Both the position numbers and the translations under genes were made by a program. Under the pieces are notes generated by a model. That model saw only the letters and a list, made by a program, of their open reading frames with translations. It made no database searches and was not told the origin of the DNA. From contig NZ_JH597773.1 of NCBI RefSeq assembly GCF_000243335.1, positions 2,385,728-2,449,727 on the forward strand: a DNA stretch of 64,000 nt, given 5' to 3'. How positions within the stretch are numbered: position 1 is the stretch's first letter; the number at the start of each line of letters is the position of its first letter. This document shows positions 9,836 to 35,061 of the stretch, piece by piece. Origin of the DNA: Leptonema illini DSM 21528. GTDB taxonomy: Bacteria > Spirochaetota > Leptospiria > Leptospirales > Leptonemataceae.

Positions 9836-10030
9836 AATCAGGCTGTCGAACATAAGACTTTTGTCCACGAAATACACAAAAGGCGCGAAAGTTTCGATCC
9901 GAAATCAGAAAGTAAACCTGACGGCATCTTGCTGCTATCCGGCGAACATGGAGCAACAAGATGGCTTGCAAACGCCCCCTCCCTTTTCGGCTTTCTCAGC
10001 GCCCCCCGTGCCCTCTGTAGTTAATCGGTT
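9836..10030 (-). repeat. dispersed intergenic repeat, degenerate copy A
   Basis: Most of the 459-bp gap between the small lipoprotein and glyA is a worn copy of a repeat also seen at 21835-24340 and 55430-55760. The diagnostic word is CACGAAATACACAAAAGGCG (from 9866), the reverse complement of the CGCGCTTTT..GTATTTCGCGG word in the other copies. GTGCCCTCTGTAGTTAA near 10010 matches the CTCTGTGGTTAA end of the family. No gene is visible in it. Confidence 0.6.
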
Positions 10031-10150
10031 CCGGTTCTTTCACTAAACCGCACAGGGTCGTGCTTTGCCAACCCAGCAGGATCCCAGGCAGCAATCTCTG
10101 CCCTAAAAACCTGCTTGCCACCGCCGGCGCTGCTCTGTAGATTTGCCTTA

Positions 10151-10195
10151 CCTGCATGACTGACGCGTTCGAGGAGCACCTCGAGGGAGTGCAGG
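10151..10195 (+). other. glyA: two-stem hairpin in the glyA leader
   Basis: In the 5' leader of glyA, an outer CCTGCA/TGCAGG pair (10151-10156 with 10190-10195) encloses a six-bp TCGAGG-AGCA-CCTCGA hairpin (10169-10184). It ends 52 bp before the start codon. It does not match a riboswitch I know; it could be an attenuator, a protein-binding site or a terminator-like stem. Confidence 0.4.
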
Positions 10196-10247
10196 GAATT
10201 CACGCCGTGCGTCTGGGCGCCTTAATCTCTAATTGCAGGAGGAGCCC

Positions 10248-11504
10248 ATGACCGCTCAAACCGATAATACGCTGAAATCCATCGACAGCGAGGTATTCAA
10301 CCTCGTTCGCTCTGAGGAGTCGTATCAGCGCTCGACCATCCGCCTTATCGCCAGCGAGAACTATACGTCCCGTGCCGTTCTCGAAGCGTGTGGCACAGTA
10401 TTCCAGAACAAATACTCCGAGGGTTATCCGGGGGCCCGCTTTTATCAGGGGCAGATTAACTGCGACGCCCTGGAACGCCTGGCCATCGATCGCGCAAAGG
10501 CGCTTTTCGGAGCGGAGCATGCAAACGTGCAGCCCTACTCGGGCTCGCCGGCTAACCTTGCCGTGTACCTTGCCTTCGCAAAGCCCGGCGATACGATCCT
10601 CGGCCTTAACCTGAGCCACGGCGGACATCTGACGCACGGCTCAAAGGCCAGCGTTACGGGCAAATGGTTCAACGCCGTGCATTACAATCTCAATCCCGAT
10701 ACGGGCCTGCTCGATTACGACGAGATCCGTCGTCTTGCTCTCGAACACCGACCGAAGCTTCTGATCGCCGGGCATTCGGCGTACCCGCGGCAGCTTGATT
10801 TCGCTAAGTTTCGCGAGATTGCCGACGAAAGCGGAGCGATTCTCTTCGTTGATATGGCGCATTTCGCAGGTCTTGTCGCAGGCGGGGCGCATGCGAATCC
10901 CGTTCCGTTTGCCGATGTCGTGACGACGACTACGCATAAGACGCTGCGCGGTCCGCGCGGAGCGATGATCCTCTGCAAAGAGGTGCACGCAAAGGCCATC
11001 GATAAAGCGGTGTTCCCGGGACTTCAAGGCGGACCGCATAACTCGACGACTGGCGGCATCGCCGTCGCCCTGAAAGAGGCCGCTACTCCGGCCTTTAAAG
11101 AATACGCCCATGCCGTCGTCGCCAACGCGAAAACCCTTGCCGCCGAGCTTTCGGCTAAAGGATTCAAGCTCGTCTCGGGCGGAACGGATAACCATCTGAT
11201 CTTGATCGATCTGACGAATAAAGGCATCACCGGCAAGGAGATGGCCATCGCCCTTGAAGCGGCCGGCATCGTGCTGAACTATAATACGGTGCCGGGCGAG
11301 ACGCGGCCGGCCTTTGATCCGTCGGGAATTCGACTCGGAACGCCGTCCGTAACCAGCCGCGGCTTCGGCGTCGGCGAGATGAAACGCATCGCCGAATGGA
11401 TGGATGCGGTGGCATCGGATGCAAAGAATACCGATAAGCTGGCCTCTATTGCCCGTGACGTTGCGACGCTGTGCAGCGGTTTTCCCGTGCCTGGAATCGA
11501 TTGA
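10248..11504 (+). CDS. glyA: serine hydroxymethyltransferase
   Basis: This 418-residue PLP enzyme interconverts serine and glycine while loading tetrahydrofolate with a one-carbon unit. It has the SHMT blocks IRLIASENYTS, NKYSEGYPGARFY, NVQPYSGSPANLAVY, LSHGGHLTHG, VDMAHFAGLVAGG and the PLP-lysine segment VTTTTHKTLRGPRGA. The ATG at 10248 has GGAGGAG immediately upstream at good spacing; a TTG at 10233 in the same frame is not needed. Monocistronic by layout. Confidence 0.97.
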   Translation: MTAQTDNTLKSIDSEVFNLVRSEESYQRSTIRLIASENYTSRAVLEACGTVFQNKYSEGYPGARFYQGQINCDALERLAIDRAKALFGAEHANVQPYSGSPANLAVYLAFAKPGDTILGLNLSHGGHLTHGSKASVTGKWFNAVHYNLNPDTGLLDYDEIRRLALEHRPKLLIAGHSAYPRQLDFAKFREIADESGAILFVDMAHFAGLVAGGAHANPVPFADVVTTTTHKTLRGPRGAMILCKEVHAKAIDKAVFPGLQGGPHNSTTGGIAVALKEAATPAFKEYAHAVVANAKTLAAELSAKGFKLVSGGTDNHLILIDLTNKGITGKEMAIALEAAGIVLNYNTVPGETRPAFDPSGIRLGTPSVTSRGFGVGEMKRIAEWMDAVASDAKNTDKLASIARDVATLCSGFPVPGID

Positions 11505-12036
11505 GGAAATAAAAGCCTTCCCTATAGGCAGATGATTGTTGTAAGGCAGGCGTCGCGATGGCAGCGGCGCCGGCTTAACCTTGCTCACTTCATGTTTCAA
11601 GATCCTGTACCGTCAGCCCGGTAATGCCCGATATTTCGTTGAAAGGGTAACCCTTCTTGAGCATAGCCCTTACAGTCACGTGCGCCTGCATCTCTATGTT
11701 GATCCTGCGGCCTCTTGAATCCCTTGCAAGGATATCGAGAATCGCATTCTTATCGTCGATGGCCTCACCGGGTAGTTCCGGGTTTTGAATAATGGGGGAC
11801 TGGAAGTTGATGAGGAGGCCAGCATAAAGTCGGGCGCGACATAATTTCGTTACTGTCGCGGCAAAAATGTTCCGGTAATCTTATTATGTCGCCGGTGAAG
11901 GACCTCACGCAGCCATTAACATCTCGAAGTCATGAAGTCTCTGCATTTTTTCCACAGGGACGCTTGTTTTTGCTGGACCGATTAACTATTGGGCAGTAAA
12001 ATCATCTATCGACTGCAAACATGCAATAAACCATTC
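11505..12036. other. left border of the accessory island
   Basis: A 532-bp gap between glyA and vsr. It contains a decayed Rpn-type nuclease fragment (11590-11831, listed separately), followed by about 200 bp of AT-rich sequence in which I see no gene. The base composition drops here and stays lower until about 16.9 kb. Confidence 0.6.
11590..11831 (-). pseudogene. remnant of an Rpn/PD-(D/E)XK nuclease-transposase gene
   Basis: Reading leftward, an open frame of about 80 codons gives INFQSPIIQNPELPGEAIDD, then AILDILARDSRGRRINIEMQ, the nuclease core of the Rpn (recombination-promoting nuclease, YhgA-like) family. It then jumps directly to KKGYPFNEISGITGLTVQDL, which belongs to the C-terminus of such proteins. 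The N-terminus and the whole middle are missing, so this is an internally deleted relic. It marks past mobile-element activity at the edge of the Vsr-methylase island. Confidence 0.7.
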
Positions 12037-12444
12037 ATGACCGACGTCTTTTCTAAAGAACAGCGCTCCTGGATTATGGGTCGCGTAAAGGGATCAGGAA
12101 ACAAAACCACGGAGCTTGCCCTGATTGCGCTTTTTCGCAAATACCGAATCACCGGTTGGCGTAGGGGCAGCAACTTACCCGGAAGGCCGGATTTTGTGTT
12201 CCCGACTGTCAGGGTCGCTATCTTCGCCGACGGCTGCTTCTGGCATGGTCATGACTGTAGAAATACCCAGCCCCTTGGAAACGGCAGCTTCTGGCGCGAA
12301 AAAGTCGAAAAGAATAGAAAGCGAGATCGCCGAGTAAGCCGAAAATTAAGATCTATGGGCTGGTCGGTTTACCGGATTTGGGAATGCCGAATAAAAAAAA
12401 GGAAGCTGCCGGCCACTCTTCTGGCCAAAGTCGGACCTTCATAA
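12037..12444 (+). CDS. vsr: very-short-patch repair endonuclease (Vsr)
   Basis: A 135-residue Vsr-type nuclease. It has the family start (MTDVFSKEQRSWIMGRVKG), LPGRPDFVFPTVRVAIFADG with the catalytic aspartate, the GCFWHGHDC block with the metal-site histidine and zinc ligands, FWREKVEKNRKRDRR and the late VYRIWEC. Vsr nicks T:G mismatches left by deamination of 5-methylcytosine, or, in some R-M contexts, acts as the restriction nuclease. The ATG at 12037 is chosen by homology; the open frame reaches 11989. It is four bases upstream of the GHKL gene and forms one operon with it, the receiver gene and the cytosine methylase. Confidence 0.92.
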   Translation: MTDVFSKEQRSWIMGRVKGSGNKTTELALIALFRKYRITGWRRGSNLPGRPDFVFPTVRVAIFADGCFWHGHDCRNTQPLGNGSFWREKVEKNRKRDRRVSRKLRSMGWSVYRIWECRIKKRKLPATLLAKVGPS

Positions 12445-12448
12445 TCAT

Positions 12449-15355
12449 ATGAAACGCGTATCATTCAAAACCCGGGCGAGAGTAGTCGACCTTCTCGGAC
12501 GTGAGCAAATTGCCGATGCACCCACCGCGCTTACGGAGCTTTTGAAGAATGCCGTCGACGCTCAGGCCGAAACAGTGACGATTCACTTCCACTCTCAAGC
12601 GGGCCTTCTCGAAGTCAGCGACGACGGGCTTGGCATGCGACCGGAGGACTTGATGGACCGCTGGCTGGTGCTTGCCACGGACTCCCGGCACGGTAAGCCA
12701 GATCCGGAATGGTATAAATATGCAACACCGGAGCAAACAAAACGCTTACAGCACGATAAGCCTTTCGGTGAGAAAGGCATCGGACGACTTGCCGTGGCCA
12801 GTCTTGGAAATGGCGTTCTCGTATGGACGAGATGGGGTAAAGGCAAAAATTTTAAGCGCTCAATGGCCCTCGTTCACTGGCATCTTTTTCGGTATCCCAA
12901 GCTGAATCTCGATGATGTCTATATACCGTTTATGGAACTGGGGGCTCAGGATAACCCCAAAGATGCGGCAAAGCTTCTACTCGAGTCTCTAAAGGATTGG
13001 TACGAGAGACATAGCAAGGATTTCTATATCGATAAAAAATCCTCCATTGATCCGAAAACGATCAGCAATGACATAAAGCGAGGCTTTGCGCAGGCCATAG
13101 ACTCTATCGTTGATTATCATGCAGACTCACCGGGGACCAGCTTTTTTATTCTTTCCACAACTGATGAAGTTCCGGATATTTTTCAATCCGGAGCGGAAAG
13201 GAAAGGAGAAAGTAATTGGCCCTCAGAGGGATTGCGCGCTATTCTTGGTTTTTGCAACCCATTCTCCGATGATGCTCCTCGCATCAAAATTGAAGCCTTC
13301 GCAGACGACCGACCAGCGTTTGAAGGGAAGAATGATTTCTGGAAATCGAAAGATTTTGAAGAGTGTGATTACTTTATTCATCTCCGCTCTAACTCGGAAG
13401 GATTCGTTAAAGGAGAGATTAGACATTATTCAAAAAAAATAAAATACGAATTTCAAACGCCACAATTGCCGCCGCAAAGTGATTATCCTGGCCCGTTCGA
13501 AATCAAGCTTGGATATGTTCTCGGTAAGCCGGAAGAATCACGATTAACACCGGATCGATTCGCATACTTCAGTAAAAAGTTGGAGGATATCGGCGCTCTT
13601 TACGTCTACCGAAACGGCATAAGGGTCATGCCATACGGTAGACAGGATACAGACTTTTTGGAATTCGAATATAGGCGCAGTTTAAACGCTGGCACTTATG
13701 TATTCTCCCATCGACGTATGTTCGGGTATATCGGAATCGATTCCGAAAATAACCCTGGCCTCATCGACAAGGCTGGGCGCGAAGGATTGATCAAAAACAA
13801 GTATTACCGGGGGCTATACAAGATCGCTACGTCAATCTTTATCGATATTGCTAAGACCCATTTCGCAACCAAAGTTAAGAAAGAACAGAAATTGAAACTG
13901 GATACGGCCTTAAGAGCGGAAATAGAGGTGCAGACCCGTTCTTTCTTAGAAGAGTTTAAAAAATCCCGAAAATATTTGAGCGAAGCCGAAAAGCTTCTCG
14001 AAAAAAAATACGCCGACCTGTATTCTCGCTCCAAGGATATAGAGAGAAGTTCAATTGATACAATCGATCGATTTTTCCAAGATTTAGAAGCTCTACGAGA
14101 TCGTTTCCGGCTTGATATAGATACTATGTCAATGGAAATCCCTTCCCTTGCTTCTCCCTCACCGAAAGTCCTCGCTGCGTGGGATTCTTACCAGACAGAC
14201 CGCCAACAATTTGAAATCCGCTGGAACCGAGACCTGCTCCAGCTTCAGCGAAAACTATCTGCGGCCTTAAAGCGTAACGCGGACAAAATTAAATATCTAA
14301 ATAAACTGAGAACGCGCCTATCGAGCAATGAACTCCGTATCCAAGCAAGGTTAGAGCAGAAGCGAGACCGTCTAATCGATGGGGCTCGCCAGATTGCCGA
14401 AAAAAAAGCGCCGATATGGTTCAACAACCATGTTGAAAAAATAAAGAGGATCCCCCGCGATCTGCTTGGTGAAGATCCACCTCAAGCAGTCGTCAATGGG
14501 TCTGACCAAGCCGCTGTCGATTTTGAGGATGCGATCCTAAAGCAAGATATTGTAGCCAAGGGCGAACTCGAGCCTTACTGGGAAGGTATTTTAACCGATA
14601 TCGAGCGAATAGCCACCGCACGCAGCATGGATGGCGCCGTAGGTGCCTTGAGTCGTGAAATGGAAGCCCTCAAGGAACGAGAATTCGTGTACATTGAACT
14701 TGCGCAGCTTGGTCTAATTGTCGAAGGGATCGACCATGAGTATCGCACGCTCTTCTCTCAAGCGAAGAAAGACTTCAAAACTCTGCGCTCCGGCAAAAAT
14801 ACAGTCGACAGCGAAACTTTCGATCACCTGTACTCCGTCTTTAACGCGATCAATGAAAAGATCGAATCCCTAGCTCCTCTATATCGAGCAGGAAGAAGAA
14901 GATACGAAACGGTAACAGGCGACAGCATCCTAAGCTTCATAAAAAGTCGCTTCCAACAGGAATACGAGACTGGCTTGATTCAAGTAGACAAGTCCTTCTC
15001 AACGTTAAGATGGAGCAGCACAAACAGGTCAGTTCTATTTGCTGCCATCATCAACGTAATCAACAATGCCCTTTATTGGATTGAGAAATCGGTCACCCCA
15101 AAGGAGATCCGGATCACTCTAGATCACGAGGATTTTGTGATCTCCGATTCGGGCCCCGGGGTGGCACCGAGAGATGCGGACCGAATCTTCGAACCGTTCT
15201 TCTCCCGCAAGCCCTCAGGACGAGGCTTAGGACTGTATCTCTCCAAAACGGCGATGCAACAGCATGGCATGGATTTAACGCTGGCAGACGAGCCGAGGAA
15301 AAAGGCCCTCCAAGGGGCTAACTTTGTTTTCAAGAAACCCGAACAGGAAGAATGA
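12449..15355 (+). CDS. double-GHKL ATPase: MORC/Hsp90-like N-terminus and histidine-kinase-like C-terminus
   Basis: A 968-residue protein with two ATPase modules. The N-terminal GHKL domain has TELLKNAVDA (E30, N34), VSDDGLGM (D59, G60, G62) and GEKGIGRLAVASLG (107-120), as in Hsp90, MutL and prokaryotic MORC/paraMORC proteins. The middle (about 460-720) is rich in charged heptads and probably coiled-coil. At 753-769, LGLIVEGIDHEYRTLF resembles a histidine-kinase dimerisation helix with phospho-acceptor H763. The C-terminus is a HATPase_c domain with INVINNALYW (~868-877), ISDSGPG (~898-904), FEPFFSRK and GRGLGLYLSKTAM. It lies between vsr and the receiver-domain gene (1-bp gap). Prokaryotic MORC-type ATPases are known to travel with restriction-modification genes; a sensor/motor of a defence system is inferred. 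Confidence 0.85.
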   Translation: MKRVSFKTRARVVDLLGREQIADAPTALTELLKNAVDAQAETVTIHFHSQAGLLEVSDDGLGMRPEDLMDRWLVLATDSRHGKPDPEWYKYATPEQTKRLQHDKPFGEKGIGRLAVASLGNGVLVWTRWGKGKNFKRSMALVHWHLFRYPKLNLDDVYIPFMELGAQDNPKDAAKLLLESLKDWYERHSKDFYIDKKSSIDPKTISNDIKRGFAQAIDSIVDYHADSPGTSFFILSTTDEVPDIFQSGAERKGESNWPSEGLRAILGFCNPFSDDAPRIKIEAFADDRPAFEGKNDFWKSKDFEECDYFIHLRSNSEGFVKGEIRHYSKKIKYEFQTPQLPPQSDYPGPFEIKLGYVLGKPEESRLTPDRFAYFSKKLEDIGALYVYRNGIRVMPYGRQDTDFLEFEYRRSLNAGTYVFSHRRMFGYIGIDSENNPGLIDKAGREGLIKNKYYRGLYKIATSIFIDIAKTHFATKVKKEQKLKLDTALRAEIEVQTRSFLEEFKKSRKYLSEAEKLLEKKYADLYSRSKDIERSSIDTIDRFFQDLEALRDRFRLDIDTMSMEIPSLASPSPKVLAAWDSYQTDRQQFEIRWNRDLLQLQRKLSAALKRNADKIKYLNKLRTRLSSNELRIQARLEQKRDRLIDGARQIAEKKAPIWFNNHVEKIKRIPRDLLGEDPPQAVVNGSDQAAVDFEDAILKQDIVAKGELEPYWEGILTDIERIATARSMDGAVGALSREMEALKEREFVYIELAQLGLIVEGIDHEYRTLFSQAKKDFKTLRSGKNTVDSETFDHLYSVFNAINEKIESLAPLYRAGRRRYETVTGDSILSFIKSRFQQEYETGLIQVDKSFSTLRWSSTNRSVLFAAIINVINNALYWIEKSVTPKEIRITLDHEDFVISDSGPGVAPRDADRIFEPFFSRKPSGRGLGLYLSKTAMQQHGMDLTLADEPRKKALQGANFVFKKPEQEE

Positions 15356-15356
15356 A

Positions 15357-16874
15357 ATGACGGCGACGATTGAAGACTTGAGATCTCAAATAGCAAGGAA
15401 ATATTGCAGGACTTTGACCGTTATCGACGATGATGCCTACCAAACCGGAACCTGGGAATCAACGAACCCTGTGATTGACGAAACGTACGTAGCTCTCGTA
15501 AAGAAGTGTAACGAGGATTCTATTCTTTGCCATTTGCAGTACTATCCAAACGGAAAATTGGGCGGCCCCGATATTGAATTTTACAAAAAATATTATGATC
15601 GAGCTGTTCAAACCGCAAAAAACTCTGAGGTTGTAATCCTCGATTGGTATCTCGGTGCTGAAAGTTCGGAGCACTCTATTGCTTTGCTCAAAGAGCTTGC
15701 AGCGGACGGAGCTCTGCGATTTGTGATCGTATATACCAAGCATAAGGAAGATGCGACGAGTAGTCTGGAATCCGAAGGCTATCATCGATTAACTATCTCC
15801 ACGAATCACTCCAACTCGCCTGTCGAAGACGACGATACTTTTCAACCCATTGGGGTGCACGACAGCCAGACGGCAGCCGTTGATTTTTTTTCCAATGAAA
15901 ATAGCAGTATCTTCATCTTGGTACAGGATAAGCCTTCGGAACCTGAGAAAAATACGCCTGATCTCTTAACGCTCATTACCCAACTGATGCTGGCTGCCTA
16001 CCCTGACTTCCTTCATTGGGCTGGATTGGAGTTGCATACTTTCATCCGCGAGAAAATGCCCCAATTAATATCCAAGCTGCCGACTGGCACTGACCACGCA
16101 ATCGTGTATCAGAGCTTATTTACCGATCTCCCGGACGATGTTGCCCACCAAGTTGCAGTTATTCATCTTGAACAGATGGAGCACGAACTTTTCAAAGAGC
16201 CCTTACAAGCGGTTTGCGATTTATATCTTCACCAAGCCATTGAGAAAGACAAGGAATGGACCAAAATCAAGGACGAGCCGACGATAAAGAAAAGGGATAA
16301 CGCTCGAACAAAAATAAACGAAAAAGAAAAAACGGGAACAAATGGGTTGAAACTCACCACTGCTATGAATCAACCTGATTCAGCCTTTCGGGCACATACC
16401 AAGCTTGCCTATATACAAGAGTCCTACATTGACATCAGTCAAGAAAAGCTATTACTGAGGCGAGGAACCATCTTCAAGAAGAAGCAGGCCACCGACGATG
16501 GATGGGATTTCCTGCTATGCATTACACCAGAGTGCGATCTTTACAGATTAAATGACGGACAACATATTCATTTTATTCAAGGAAGACGTAAGGACAATCT
16601 TGACAAGACTAGCGGTCCTTTGTTTTTTCAAACCTTTGTGTCGGAGTCTACCCAAATCGAATGGGAAAGCTTTCGAACCAAGGTAATTCTCGCACCGACA
16701 GGCAGCGCTGCCGGCTTTCCATCTATCTCAGATGCGGCTTTCACTGATTACGAATACGTTGGCCAAATCAAAAGTCGGTTTGTCGATCGCATAATGCAAC
16801 GTGGCTGGTCACAGCAAACACGTGTTGGCGTCGATACTGCAGAATATATAAGGTTTGTTAGAAGTGAGAAGTAA
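15357..16874 (+). CDS. receiver-domain protein with a large uncharacterised C-terminus
   Basis: A 505-residue protein. Its first ~135 residues look like a divergent response-regulator receiver: TVIDDDAYQ (acidic pair at 24-26), VVILDWYLGAE with candidate phospho-aspartate D96, and RFVIVYTKHKE with T127. The β-α spacing is stretched between the first two motifs by an insertion of about 40 residues. The remainder has no DNA-binding output domain I recognise; a conserved-looking FLLCITPECDLYRL lies at ~395-410. It starts one base after the GHKL/kinase stop codon and overlaps the methylase by 11 bases, so all four island genes are tightly coupled. The natural partner for phosphotransfer is H763 of the upstream protein. 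Confidence 0.75.
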   Translation: MTATIEDLRSQIARKYCRTLTVIDDDAYQTGTWESTNPVIDETYVALVKKCNEDSILCHLQYYPNGKLGGPDIEFYKKYYDRAVQTAKNSEVVILDWYLGAESSEHSIALLKELAADGALRFVIVYTKHKEDATSSLESEGYHRLTISTNHSNSPVEDDDTFQPIGVHDSQTAAVDFFSNENSSIFILVQDKPSEPEKNTPDLLTLITQLMLAAYPDFLHWAGLELHTFIREKMPQLISKLPTGTDHAIVYQSLFTDLPDDVAHQVAVIHLEQMEHELFKEPLQAVCDLYLHQAIEKDKEWTKIKDEPTIKKRDNARTKINEKEKTGTNGLKLTTAMNQPDSAFRAHTKLAYIQESYIDISQEKLLLRRGTIFKKKQATDDGWDFLLCITPECDLYRLNDGQHIHFIQGRRKDNLDKTSGPLFFQTFVSESTQIEWESFRTKVILAPTGSAAGFPSISDAAFTDYEYVGQIKSRFVDRIMQRGWSQQTRVGVDTAEYIRFVRSEK

Positions 16875-17886
16875 ACCGACTGCCATCGATCTCTTCAGCG
16901 GATGCGGCGGAATGACGCAGGGGTTGAAGTCCGCGGGCTTTAGCGTTTTAGCCTCCGCCGAAATTCTTGCCGTAGCGCGTGAGACGTATCACGACAATCA
17001 TCCCGAAGTTCGCCAGTATACCGATGTGCGGCGGTTAACAGGAGCGACGCTGCTATCCGATTTGAATTTGCGCCCAGGCGAGCTTGATCTTCTCGCAGGC
17101 TGCCCGCCCTGTCAGGGTTTCTCGACCATTCGCACGAGGAATAAGCCGAATCCGGTCGCCGACGAGCGCAATGAACTGATTTTCGATTTTTTACGACTTG
17201 CGCTTGCTCTACGACCGAAAGCCATCCTCATGGAAAACGTCCCGGGTTTGATGAAGGATCGCCGTTTAGAAAAAACGGCTCGTAGACTGCGAGCCGCAGG
17301 GTATGACGTTGAGGTCGACGTCATCGATGCGGCGGATTTCGGCGTACCGCAGCGCCGGAAGCGGATGATATTAGTGGCGACGCGAACCGGCAGAGCCAGT
17401 CTTCCCTCGGGGGACAGCAAACAGCGCACCGTCGCCGATGCTATCCGTGATCTGCCGAAGGCGGGGAAATCGGGAATACACTGGCATGACCTGAAACGAG
17501 ATCACTCGGAAAAGGTGATGAATATAATCCGCCGTATTTCGAAGGACGGGGGTAGCAGGAGCGACCTCGGAAAGGAGCAATTGGAATGCCACAAGCGAAC
17601 GGACGGCTTTCGCGACGTTTACGGTCGATTATCCTGGAACAAAGTCAGTTCCACGATCACCCGATCATGCGTTAACCCTTCTAAAGGAAGGTTTATTCAT
17701 CCCGAAGAAGACAGGGCTATCACGGTTTTCGAGGCTGCTCTATTGCAATCCTTCCCGAAGTCATATCGATTTTCCCGATCGATTAATCTGACCGAGGTCA
17801 CATCCATGATCGGTGAAGCCTTGCCCCCTTTGTTCGCCAAGAAGCAAGGCTTACATATCCGTCGAAAGATTCTGAACCGCCAATAA
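16864..17886 (+). CDS. DNA cytosine-5 methyltransferase (Dcm-like)
   Basis: A ~340-residue C5-methylase with all core motifs in order: DLFSGCGGMTQGLKSAGF (I), AGCPPCQGFSTIR (IV, catalytic Cys), LMENVPGLMKD (VI), GVPQRRKRMILVATR (VIII) and a late IGEALPPLFAKK (X). The target-recognition region between VIII and X is short (~130 residues). It should methylate a specific sequence that Vsr would police for deamination. The GTG at 16864 is taken as start; it overlaps the receiver gene by 11 bases. A TTG at 16855 is also possible. Confidence 0.93.
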   Translation: MRSKPTAIDLFSGCGGMTQGLKSAGFSVLASAEILAVARETYHDNHPEVRQYTDVRRLTGATLLSDLNLRPGELDLLAGCPPCQGFSTIRTRNKPNPVADERNELIFDFLRLALALRPKAILMENVPGLMKDRRLEKTARRLRAAGYDVEVDVIDAADFGVPQRRKRMILVATRTGRASLPSGDSKQRTVADAIRDLPKAGKSGIHWHDLKRDHSEKVMNIIRRISKDGGSRSDLGKEQLECHKRTDGFRDVYGRLSWNKVSSTITRSCVNPSKGRFIHPEEDRAITVFEAALLQSFPKSYRFSRSINLTEVTSMIGEALPPLFAKKQGLHIRRKILNRQ

Positions 17887-22073: not shown

Positions 22074-24011
<1,938 letters not shown>

Positions 24012-34819: not shown

Positions 34820-34895
34820 TGGGATGTAGCTCAGGTGGTGAGAGCGGCGACCTTATAAGCCGCGTCTGTCGCGGGTTCGAATCCCGTCATCCCGA
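34820..34895 (+). tRNA. tRNA-Ile (anticodon TAT), atypical
   Basis: A cloverleaf can be folded: acceptor TGGGATG/CATCCCG (34820-34826, 34888-34894; first pair U-G), TA at 8-9, D stem GCTC/GAGC, anticodon stem GCGAC/GCCGC with one A-C mismatch, loop CTTATAA with anticodon TAT (reads AUA, Ile), T arm GCGGG-TTCGAAT-CCCGT, discriminator A. The variable region is seven bases rather than five, and CCA is not encoded. Most bacteria read AUA with a CAT anticodon modified to lysidine, so a TAT isoacceptor in an accessory region is unusual. It may be functional or decaying. Confidence 0.7.
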
Positions 34896-35061
34896 CTGAA
34901 GCCGCTCAGGAATCATTCAACATGCTACGAATCCAGCCAGTCCGAATCGGCATCCATATCCACGGCCAGCTCATGTTTCTGGGAAATGCGGTAATGGCCC
35001 GCTGTATGTATGCCCTCGGGAATTCAGGCATTAGCGCAGCAACGGGCACAGGCTCTGGCAA

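Follow-up and report, generated by a model that had tools for sequence, protein, structure and literature searches.

Fusion of a histidine-kinase module with a MORC/MutL-type ATPase in a cassette with receiver and C5 methylase genes of Leptonema illini

The window, a stretch of 64,000 nucleotides from the genome of Leptonema illini DSM 21528 (contig NZ_JH597773.1), harbors a cassette of four genes in the order Vsr, kinase, receiver and C5 methylase (Table 1). The receiver and methylase genes share 20 bases, and for Vsr an ATG at 12037 suits the family start better than the TTG. Vsr enzymes correct the T:G mismatches left when 5-methylcytosine is deaminated. The GC content falls from about 0.58 to 0.43-0.49 over most of the cassette, which is consistent with its acquisition. 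Neither local repeats nor a tRNA gene was found at the cassette ends, the two genes that flank the cassette are not kept together in related genomes, which thus reveal no empty site, and scans for promoters and terminators gave results near chance. Just upstream lies a serine hydroxymethyltransferase gene (10233-11504); a second such gene (G000:C1:2241047-2242273) is only 49% identical to it. Elsewhere in the window, ARAGORN predicts a tRNA-Ile (anticodon TAT, UAU) at 34820-34896 on the forward strand, either real or a miscall, this anticodon being uncommon in bacteria. An ORF at 22182-23546 on the reverse strand resembles, by eye only, a group II intron reverse transcriptase.

Table 1. Features of the cassette, in positions of the window.
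Feature	Position	Strand	Basis
Vsr-type endonuclease, 151 aa from TTG	11989..12444	+	TIGR00632 vsr E 3e-32 (above cut-off); Pfam Vsr E 1.9e-18
MORC-ATPase/histidine-kinase fusion	12449..15355	+	ORF, 968 aa
MORC/MutL/Hsp90-type GHKL ATPase + S5 (transducer) module	12473..13900	+	residues about 9-484; PF13589 and MORC3 model match
Helical region, candidate stalk	13799..14686	+	residues about 451-746; AlphaFold2 secondary structure, moderate/low pLDDT
HEF_HK (DHp-like) domain	14705..14893	+	residues 753-815; PF19191 E 2.7e-6
H763, predicted phospho-accepting His	14735..14737	+	87/87 homologues; aligned with CpxA phospho-His
HATPase_c kinase catalytic domain	15035..15346	+	residues 863-966; PF02518 E 9.8e-23; ThkA CA match
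Receiver-like partner protein, 505 aa	15357..16874	+	PF19192 E 6.1e-24; ATG just past kinase stop; ORF open from TTG 15324
D24 of receiver	15426..15428	+	D24 89/89; D25 88/89
D96 of receiver, predicted phospho-acceptor	15642..15644	+	D96 89/89
Receiver C-terminal domain, (T/S)PxCD + RxG motifs	16413..16871	+	motifs; homologue model pLDDT 91.8
C5 cytosine DNA methyltransferase, 343 aa from TTG	16855..17886	+	PF00145 E 3.7e-60; TIGR00675 above cut-off

The kinase gene encodes a fusion protein in which HATPase_c_3 (PF13589, residues 26-136, E 4.4e-16), HEF_HK and HATPase_c occur in one chain, each above the Pfam cut-off. The first-pass annotation had placed the fusion at 14690-15355: this stretch comprises codons 748-968 and the stop of the ORF 12449-15355, and it holds the kinase part, but the N-terminal ATPase lies outside it. 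The fusion itself, of a histidine-kinase module to a MORC/MutL-type ATPase, stands, as Pfam profiles, structure comparison and 87 homologues agree on it. A chimeric ORF or assembly artefact was ruled out by the same architecture in 87 records.

Homologues were gathered with a four-member alignment, whose scan found 80 loci on genome contigs and 6 on viral contigs, with 3 more from plasmids; when the single fusion protein was the query, the genome-contig scan gave zero matches. Conservation is counted over 87 full-length kinase proteins and 89 receivers. Both search patterns (LGREQIAD and YGR[EQI]D[NT]DF) lie within the N-terminal module, so that conservation of this module is partly selected for; for the same reason, conservation of H763 and of the C-terminal site is not.

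The 13 motif residues of the N-terminal ATPase (E30, K33, N34, D37, D58, G60, G62, G107, K109, G110, G112 and, in the S5 domain, K441 and R444) are all present in the window protein and invariant in 87/87 full-length homologues, the D58xGxG and GEKGIGR motifs among them. GHKL motifs I-IV and an S5 domain with its basic finger residue are seen both in the sequence and in the fold: residues 9-475 of an AlphaFold2 model align structurally with the ATPase cassette of MORC3 (5ix2; Z 19.2 over 334 residues, rmsd 4.2), and Hsp90 and MutL score only slightly lower. A family-profile search with the N-terminal part also recovers MutL, PMS2 and Hsp90 relatives. The second, MORC/MutL-like GHKL ATPase proposed earlier for the N-terminus is thus borne out by the PF13589 match, the motifs and the fold. 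The nearest NCBIfam model is that of the BbrUII/HgiDII restriction enzymes (E 1e-17); the N-terminal ATPases are related, but the likeness stops after about 124 residues and scores far under the model cut-off of 550 bits. Iyer and colleagues defined the paraMORC ATPases of restriction operons, for which they proposed DNA looping, and distinguished a strict MORC family by a GhXhhpXXRhl motif in the S5 domain (PMC2292703, 2008). With these operons the window cassette shares the N-terminal GHKL and S5 domains, all ATP motifs and a methylase and Vsr alongside; it differs in a cassette without SFII helicase and in the added C-terminal histidine-kinase module. The N-terminal module is filed here as paraMORC-like only.

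In the C-terminal module, H763 (codon CAT, context LIVEGIDHEYRTLFSQ) is followed at a distance of 106-165 residues by the N box (N869, N873), the G1 box (D900, G902, G904) and the G2 box (G924, G926, G928). A DHp-like helix with H-E-Y at 763-765 ahead of a full HATPase_c domain had been described before, and PF19191, PF02518 and this spacing agree with that description. The alignment of homologues that the first-pass annotation had suggested for H763 and both ATPase motif sets gives complete conservation of the catalytic residues checked (87/87, with N869, N873, G902, G924, G926 and G928 among the C-terminal residues) except at D900 (86/87). The position of E764 is occupied by E in 75 homologues, D in 11 and Q in 1 (E/D in 86/87). 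In a phmmer search, CpxA is the best solved sequence relative of the C-terminal part (residues 757-949, E 8e-10), and the alignment sets H763 on its phospho-His (IDHEYRT vs. ISHELRT). Like the HisKA kinases CpxA and ZraS, the module has the DHp-CA order, the HE dyad, the N, G1 and G2 boxes and their spacing, with a model Z of about 17; in contrast to them, it has no membrane or ordinary sensor domain, and the MORC module occupies the input position. The H box of the family, unlike that of HisKA kinases, varies past H+1 (G, S, D or T at H+4; HEYRT in the window protein). Neither the T/N at H+4 nor the HisKA proline at H+5 is conserved across the family, and phosphatase activity and the details of transfer may therefore differ from those of HisKA kinases.

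The AlphaFold2 model is a monomer built from an 82-row alignment, with a mean pLDDT of 78.9, a minimum around residues 720-761 and values of 40-62 at the start of the DHp helix. Model and sequence both show a DHp-CA arrangement in which the H box precedes the N, G1 and G2 boxes: residues 755-968 match ZraS (Z 17.1), 749-967 CpxA (Z 16.7) and 817-968 the ThkA CA domain (Z 17.4). The CA domain alone fits at rmsd 2.4-2.6, and DHp and CA superposed together at 10-13; in this model, the high value probably reflects domain orientation. Residues 460-720 had been read as a coiled coil, a view that the model does not favor: with moderate to low confidence it gives about seven helices in series and no single continuous coiled coil. 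These middle helices are plausible as a stalk in the model, and they may act as a lever between the two ATPases.

The HEF_HK (PF19191)/Response_reg_2 (PF19192) family was described in 2021 together with C5 methylase and Vsr (PMC8011034). Its group 1, with 174 of the 222 HEF_HK proteins, has the architecture HATPase_c_3, HEF_HK, HATPase_c (PMC8011034); within the family, the two-ATPase chain, which the first-pass annotation had taken to be uncommon, is thus not rare. Some groups lack one ATPase, and Response_reg_2 receivers carry no other known domain (PMC8011034). The window cassette shares with group 1 the three domains in order, the adjacent Response_reg_2 gene, the C5 methylase and Vsr. It differs in gene order, with Vsr leading and the methylase at the end, in a short and divergent receiver, and in the H box HEYRT, which is nearer to HisKA than in the family majority. 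The literature searched, with few subscription papers and preprints, yielded no functional study or biochemistry for any HEF_HK/Response_reg_2 member. DefensePredictor lists HATPase and REC labels among its unvalidated predicted systems, which are comparable by label only (PMC13092281).

The receiver protein matches Response_reg_2 above the Pfam cut-off, at 11-22% identity to its relatives. The model of a family representative (pLDDT 91.8) combines a receiver domain, a long helical insert and a mainly beta C-terminal domain; its REC-like part resembles the receivers PorX and EvgA, with Z up to 9.8. In the receiver domain of the family, the long helical insert lies between predicted β4 and β5 (residues 144-250 of the L056 receiver, 9960-11714); the window protein seemingly has only a short one. 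For the β5 lysine of the window receiver no confident alignment was obtained. In the C-terminal domain, C393, R489 and G491 (window numbering) are invariant, and the domain has no relative in Pfam, NCBIfam, PADLOC or PDB sequences. Because the receiver part takes up the lists that Foldseek and VIA give for the model as a whole, this domain without a sequence match cannot be called a new fold. A PemK/MazF fold, an idea that came from a weak structure-search match and a visual likeness of motifs, obtains an hhalign probability of 0.1%, although distant folds lie beyond the reach of sequence alone. A tblastn search of plasmids with the window receiver gave no match, because this protein is too divergent; among 100 genomes searched (its own and 99 relatives), the receiver family occurs in the window's own genome only.

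The receiver gene lies immediately downstream of the kinase gene in 89/90 loci, the remaining one being cut by a contig end. The methylase adjoins in 82/90 (66 upstream, 16 downstream), and Vsr is nearby in 35/90. The receiver is the fastest-evolving member (mean identity 28%). Pairwise distances, compared by rank correlation among related sequences and without a significance test, give 0.85 for kinase and receiver, 0.56 for kinase and methylase and 0.52 for receiver and methylase; given the third member, the partial correlations are 0.79, 0.27 and 0.09. This indicates that kinase and receiver form a unit and that the methylase is partly exchangeable. Covariation between the proteins (79 pairs, about 55 effective) does not single out a DHp-receiver contact, as the sequences are too few and clade signal dominates. 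Among 5,426 complete genomes of E. coli, 214 have a DNA match to the kinase gene found in a Brenneria relative, and in 7 of these the match spans almost the whole gene at 73% identity. Both E. coli loci that were inspected carry the methylase-kinase-receiver trio, and the function of the family is therefore testable in a laboratory host.

A plasmid cassette of Campylobacter jejuni (L006) resembles that of the window in its fusion of a MORC ATPase with HATPase_c, an HE dyad (H510), the TPSCD motif of the receiver and a dcm gene. It differs in lacking a HEF_HK match, in a shorter helical region and in dcm on the opposite strand, and its receiver is canonical, Response_reg-like (a weak match, below cut-off), and joined to the TPSCD motif. 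The receiver type has been exchanged and both ends of the pathway kept, which speaks for His-Asp transfer as the connection between them. Two further plasmid genes were seen without a recognised receiver neighbor: one from Hymenobacter (L008, 5974-8502) with a MORC-type ATPase and a separate C-terminal HATPase_c, and one from Agrobacterium (L007, 5623-8136) with only the N-terminal MORC-type ATPase as best match. Further variants may thus exist.

The reading that we consider probable, with some reserve, is a phosphorelay from a soluble histidine kinase to the receiver, with the MORC/MutL-type ATPase as input and an output around C5 methylase restriction or defense. The N-terminal GHKL and S5 module would probably dimerize on ATP as a putative clamp on DNA or a protein-DNA complex, whose state would depend on the neighboring methylase. 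The helical region would relay the state of the clamp to the DHp-CA part, where the CA domain is predicted, from fold and complete conservation, to phosphorylate H763. Adjacency, co-evolution and the conserved Asp point to D96 of the next-gene receiver as the predicted recipient of the phosphoryl group; the receiver C-terminal domain, as putative output, would control or execute the restriction or defense. Vsr would repair the mismatches left by deamination at the cassette. A narrower version is tentative and on balance doubtful: the methylase-kinase-receiver trio would be a self-sufficient restriction or defense system gated by the phosphorelay, with the clamp sensing wrongly methylated DNA and the receiver C-terminal domain acting as effector.

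Alternatively, the kinase-like and receiver proteins would themselves be restriction machinery, their two ATPases driving a DNA-bound complex in which phosphotransfer is at most an internal gate or switch. We regard this as rather unlikely. Most cassettes are without a conserved separate restriction endonuclease (none in E. coli 400660 and, by Pfam and NCBIfam, none besides Vsr in the four genes of the window cassette), and the NCBIfam neighbors of the N-terminal ATPase are restriction enzymes. However, domain searches recognised no nuclease domain in the kinase or receiver protein, and the fully conserved His and Asp argue that phosphotransfer matters. Flanking restriction-type genes were sampled for 107 of 168 candidates; their nuclease domains are few and varied (HNH_2 in 7, Mrr_cat in 5 and AspBHI-type in 4 of the 107). 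An HNH restriction gene labelled 'phosphorothioated DNA-binding' recurs next to the cassette (6/107, e.g., L126, 17013-17885), and the same gene type lies beside the cassette copy of E. coli O55:H7, in an island adjoining a tRNA-Leu gene.

Such variation of nearby restriction genes, the classic two-component parts and the frequent methylase neighbor would also fit a regulatory two-component system that tunes the methylase or nearby mobile restriction genes and has no defense role of its own. This is less likely still, as no DNA-binding output domain was recognised in the receiver and, once the kinase is accounted for, the methylase has co-evolved only loosely with the receiver. A kinase module reduced to a structural relic beside a MORC ATPase working alone, as H boxes degenerate past H+1 and groups lacking one ATPase might suggest, is very improbable given the invariant H763, N- and G-box residues and the Asp residues kept in the partner receiver (D96 and D24).

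The window fusion protein is one more divergent member of the family described in 2021 and introduces no new principle. What is added here is the co-evolution of kinase and receiver as a unit, the looser coupling of the methylase, the receiver-swap variant of Campylobacter and carriage by E. coli. The main interest lies in the MORC module as putative sensor and in the receiver output domain. If the phosphorelay reading is true, a clamp ATPase that feeds into a histidine kinase would tie DNA methylation state to a phosphorelay, and this would bear on the role of the prokaryotic relatives of MORC.
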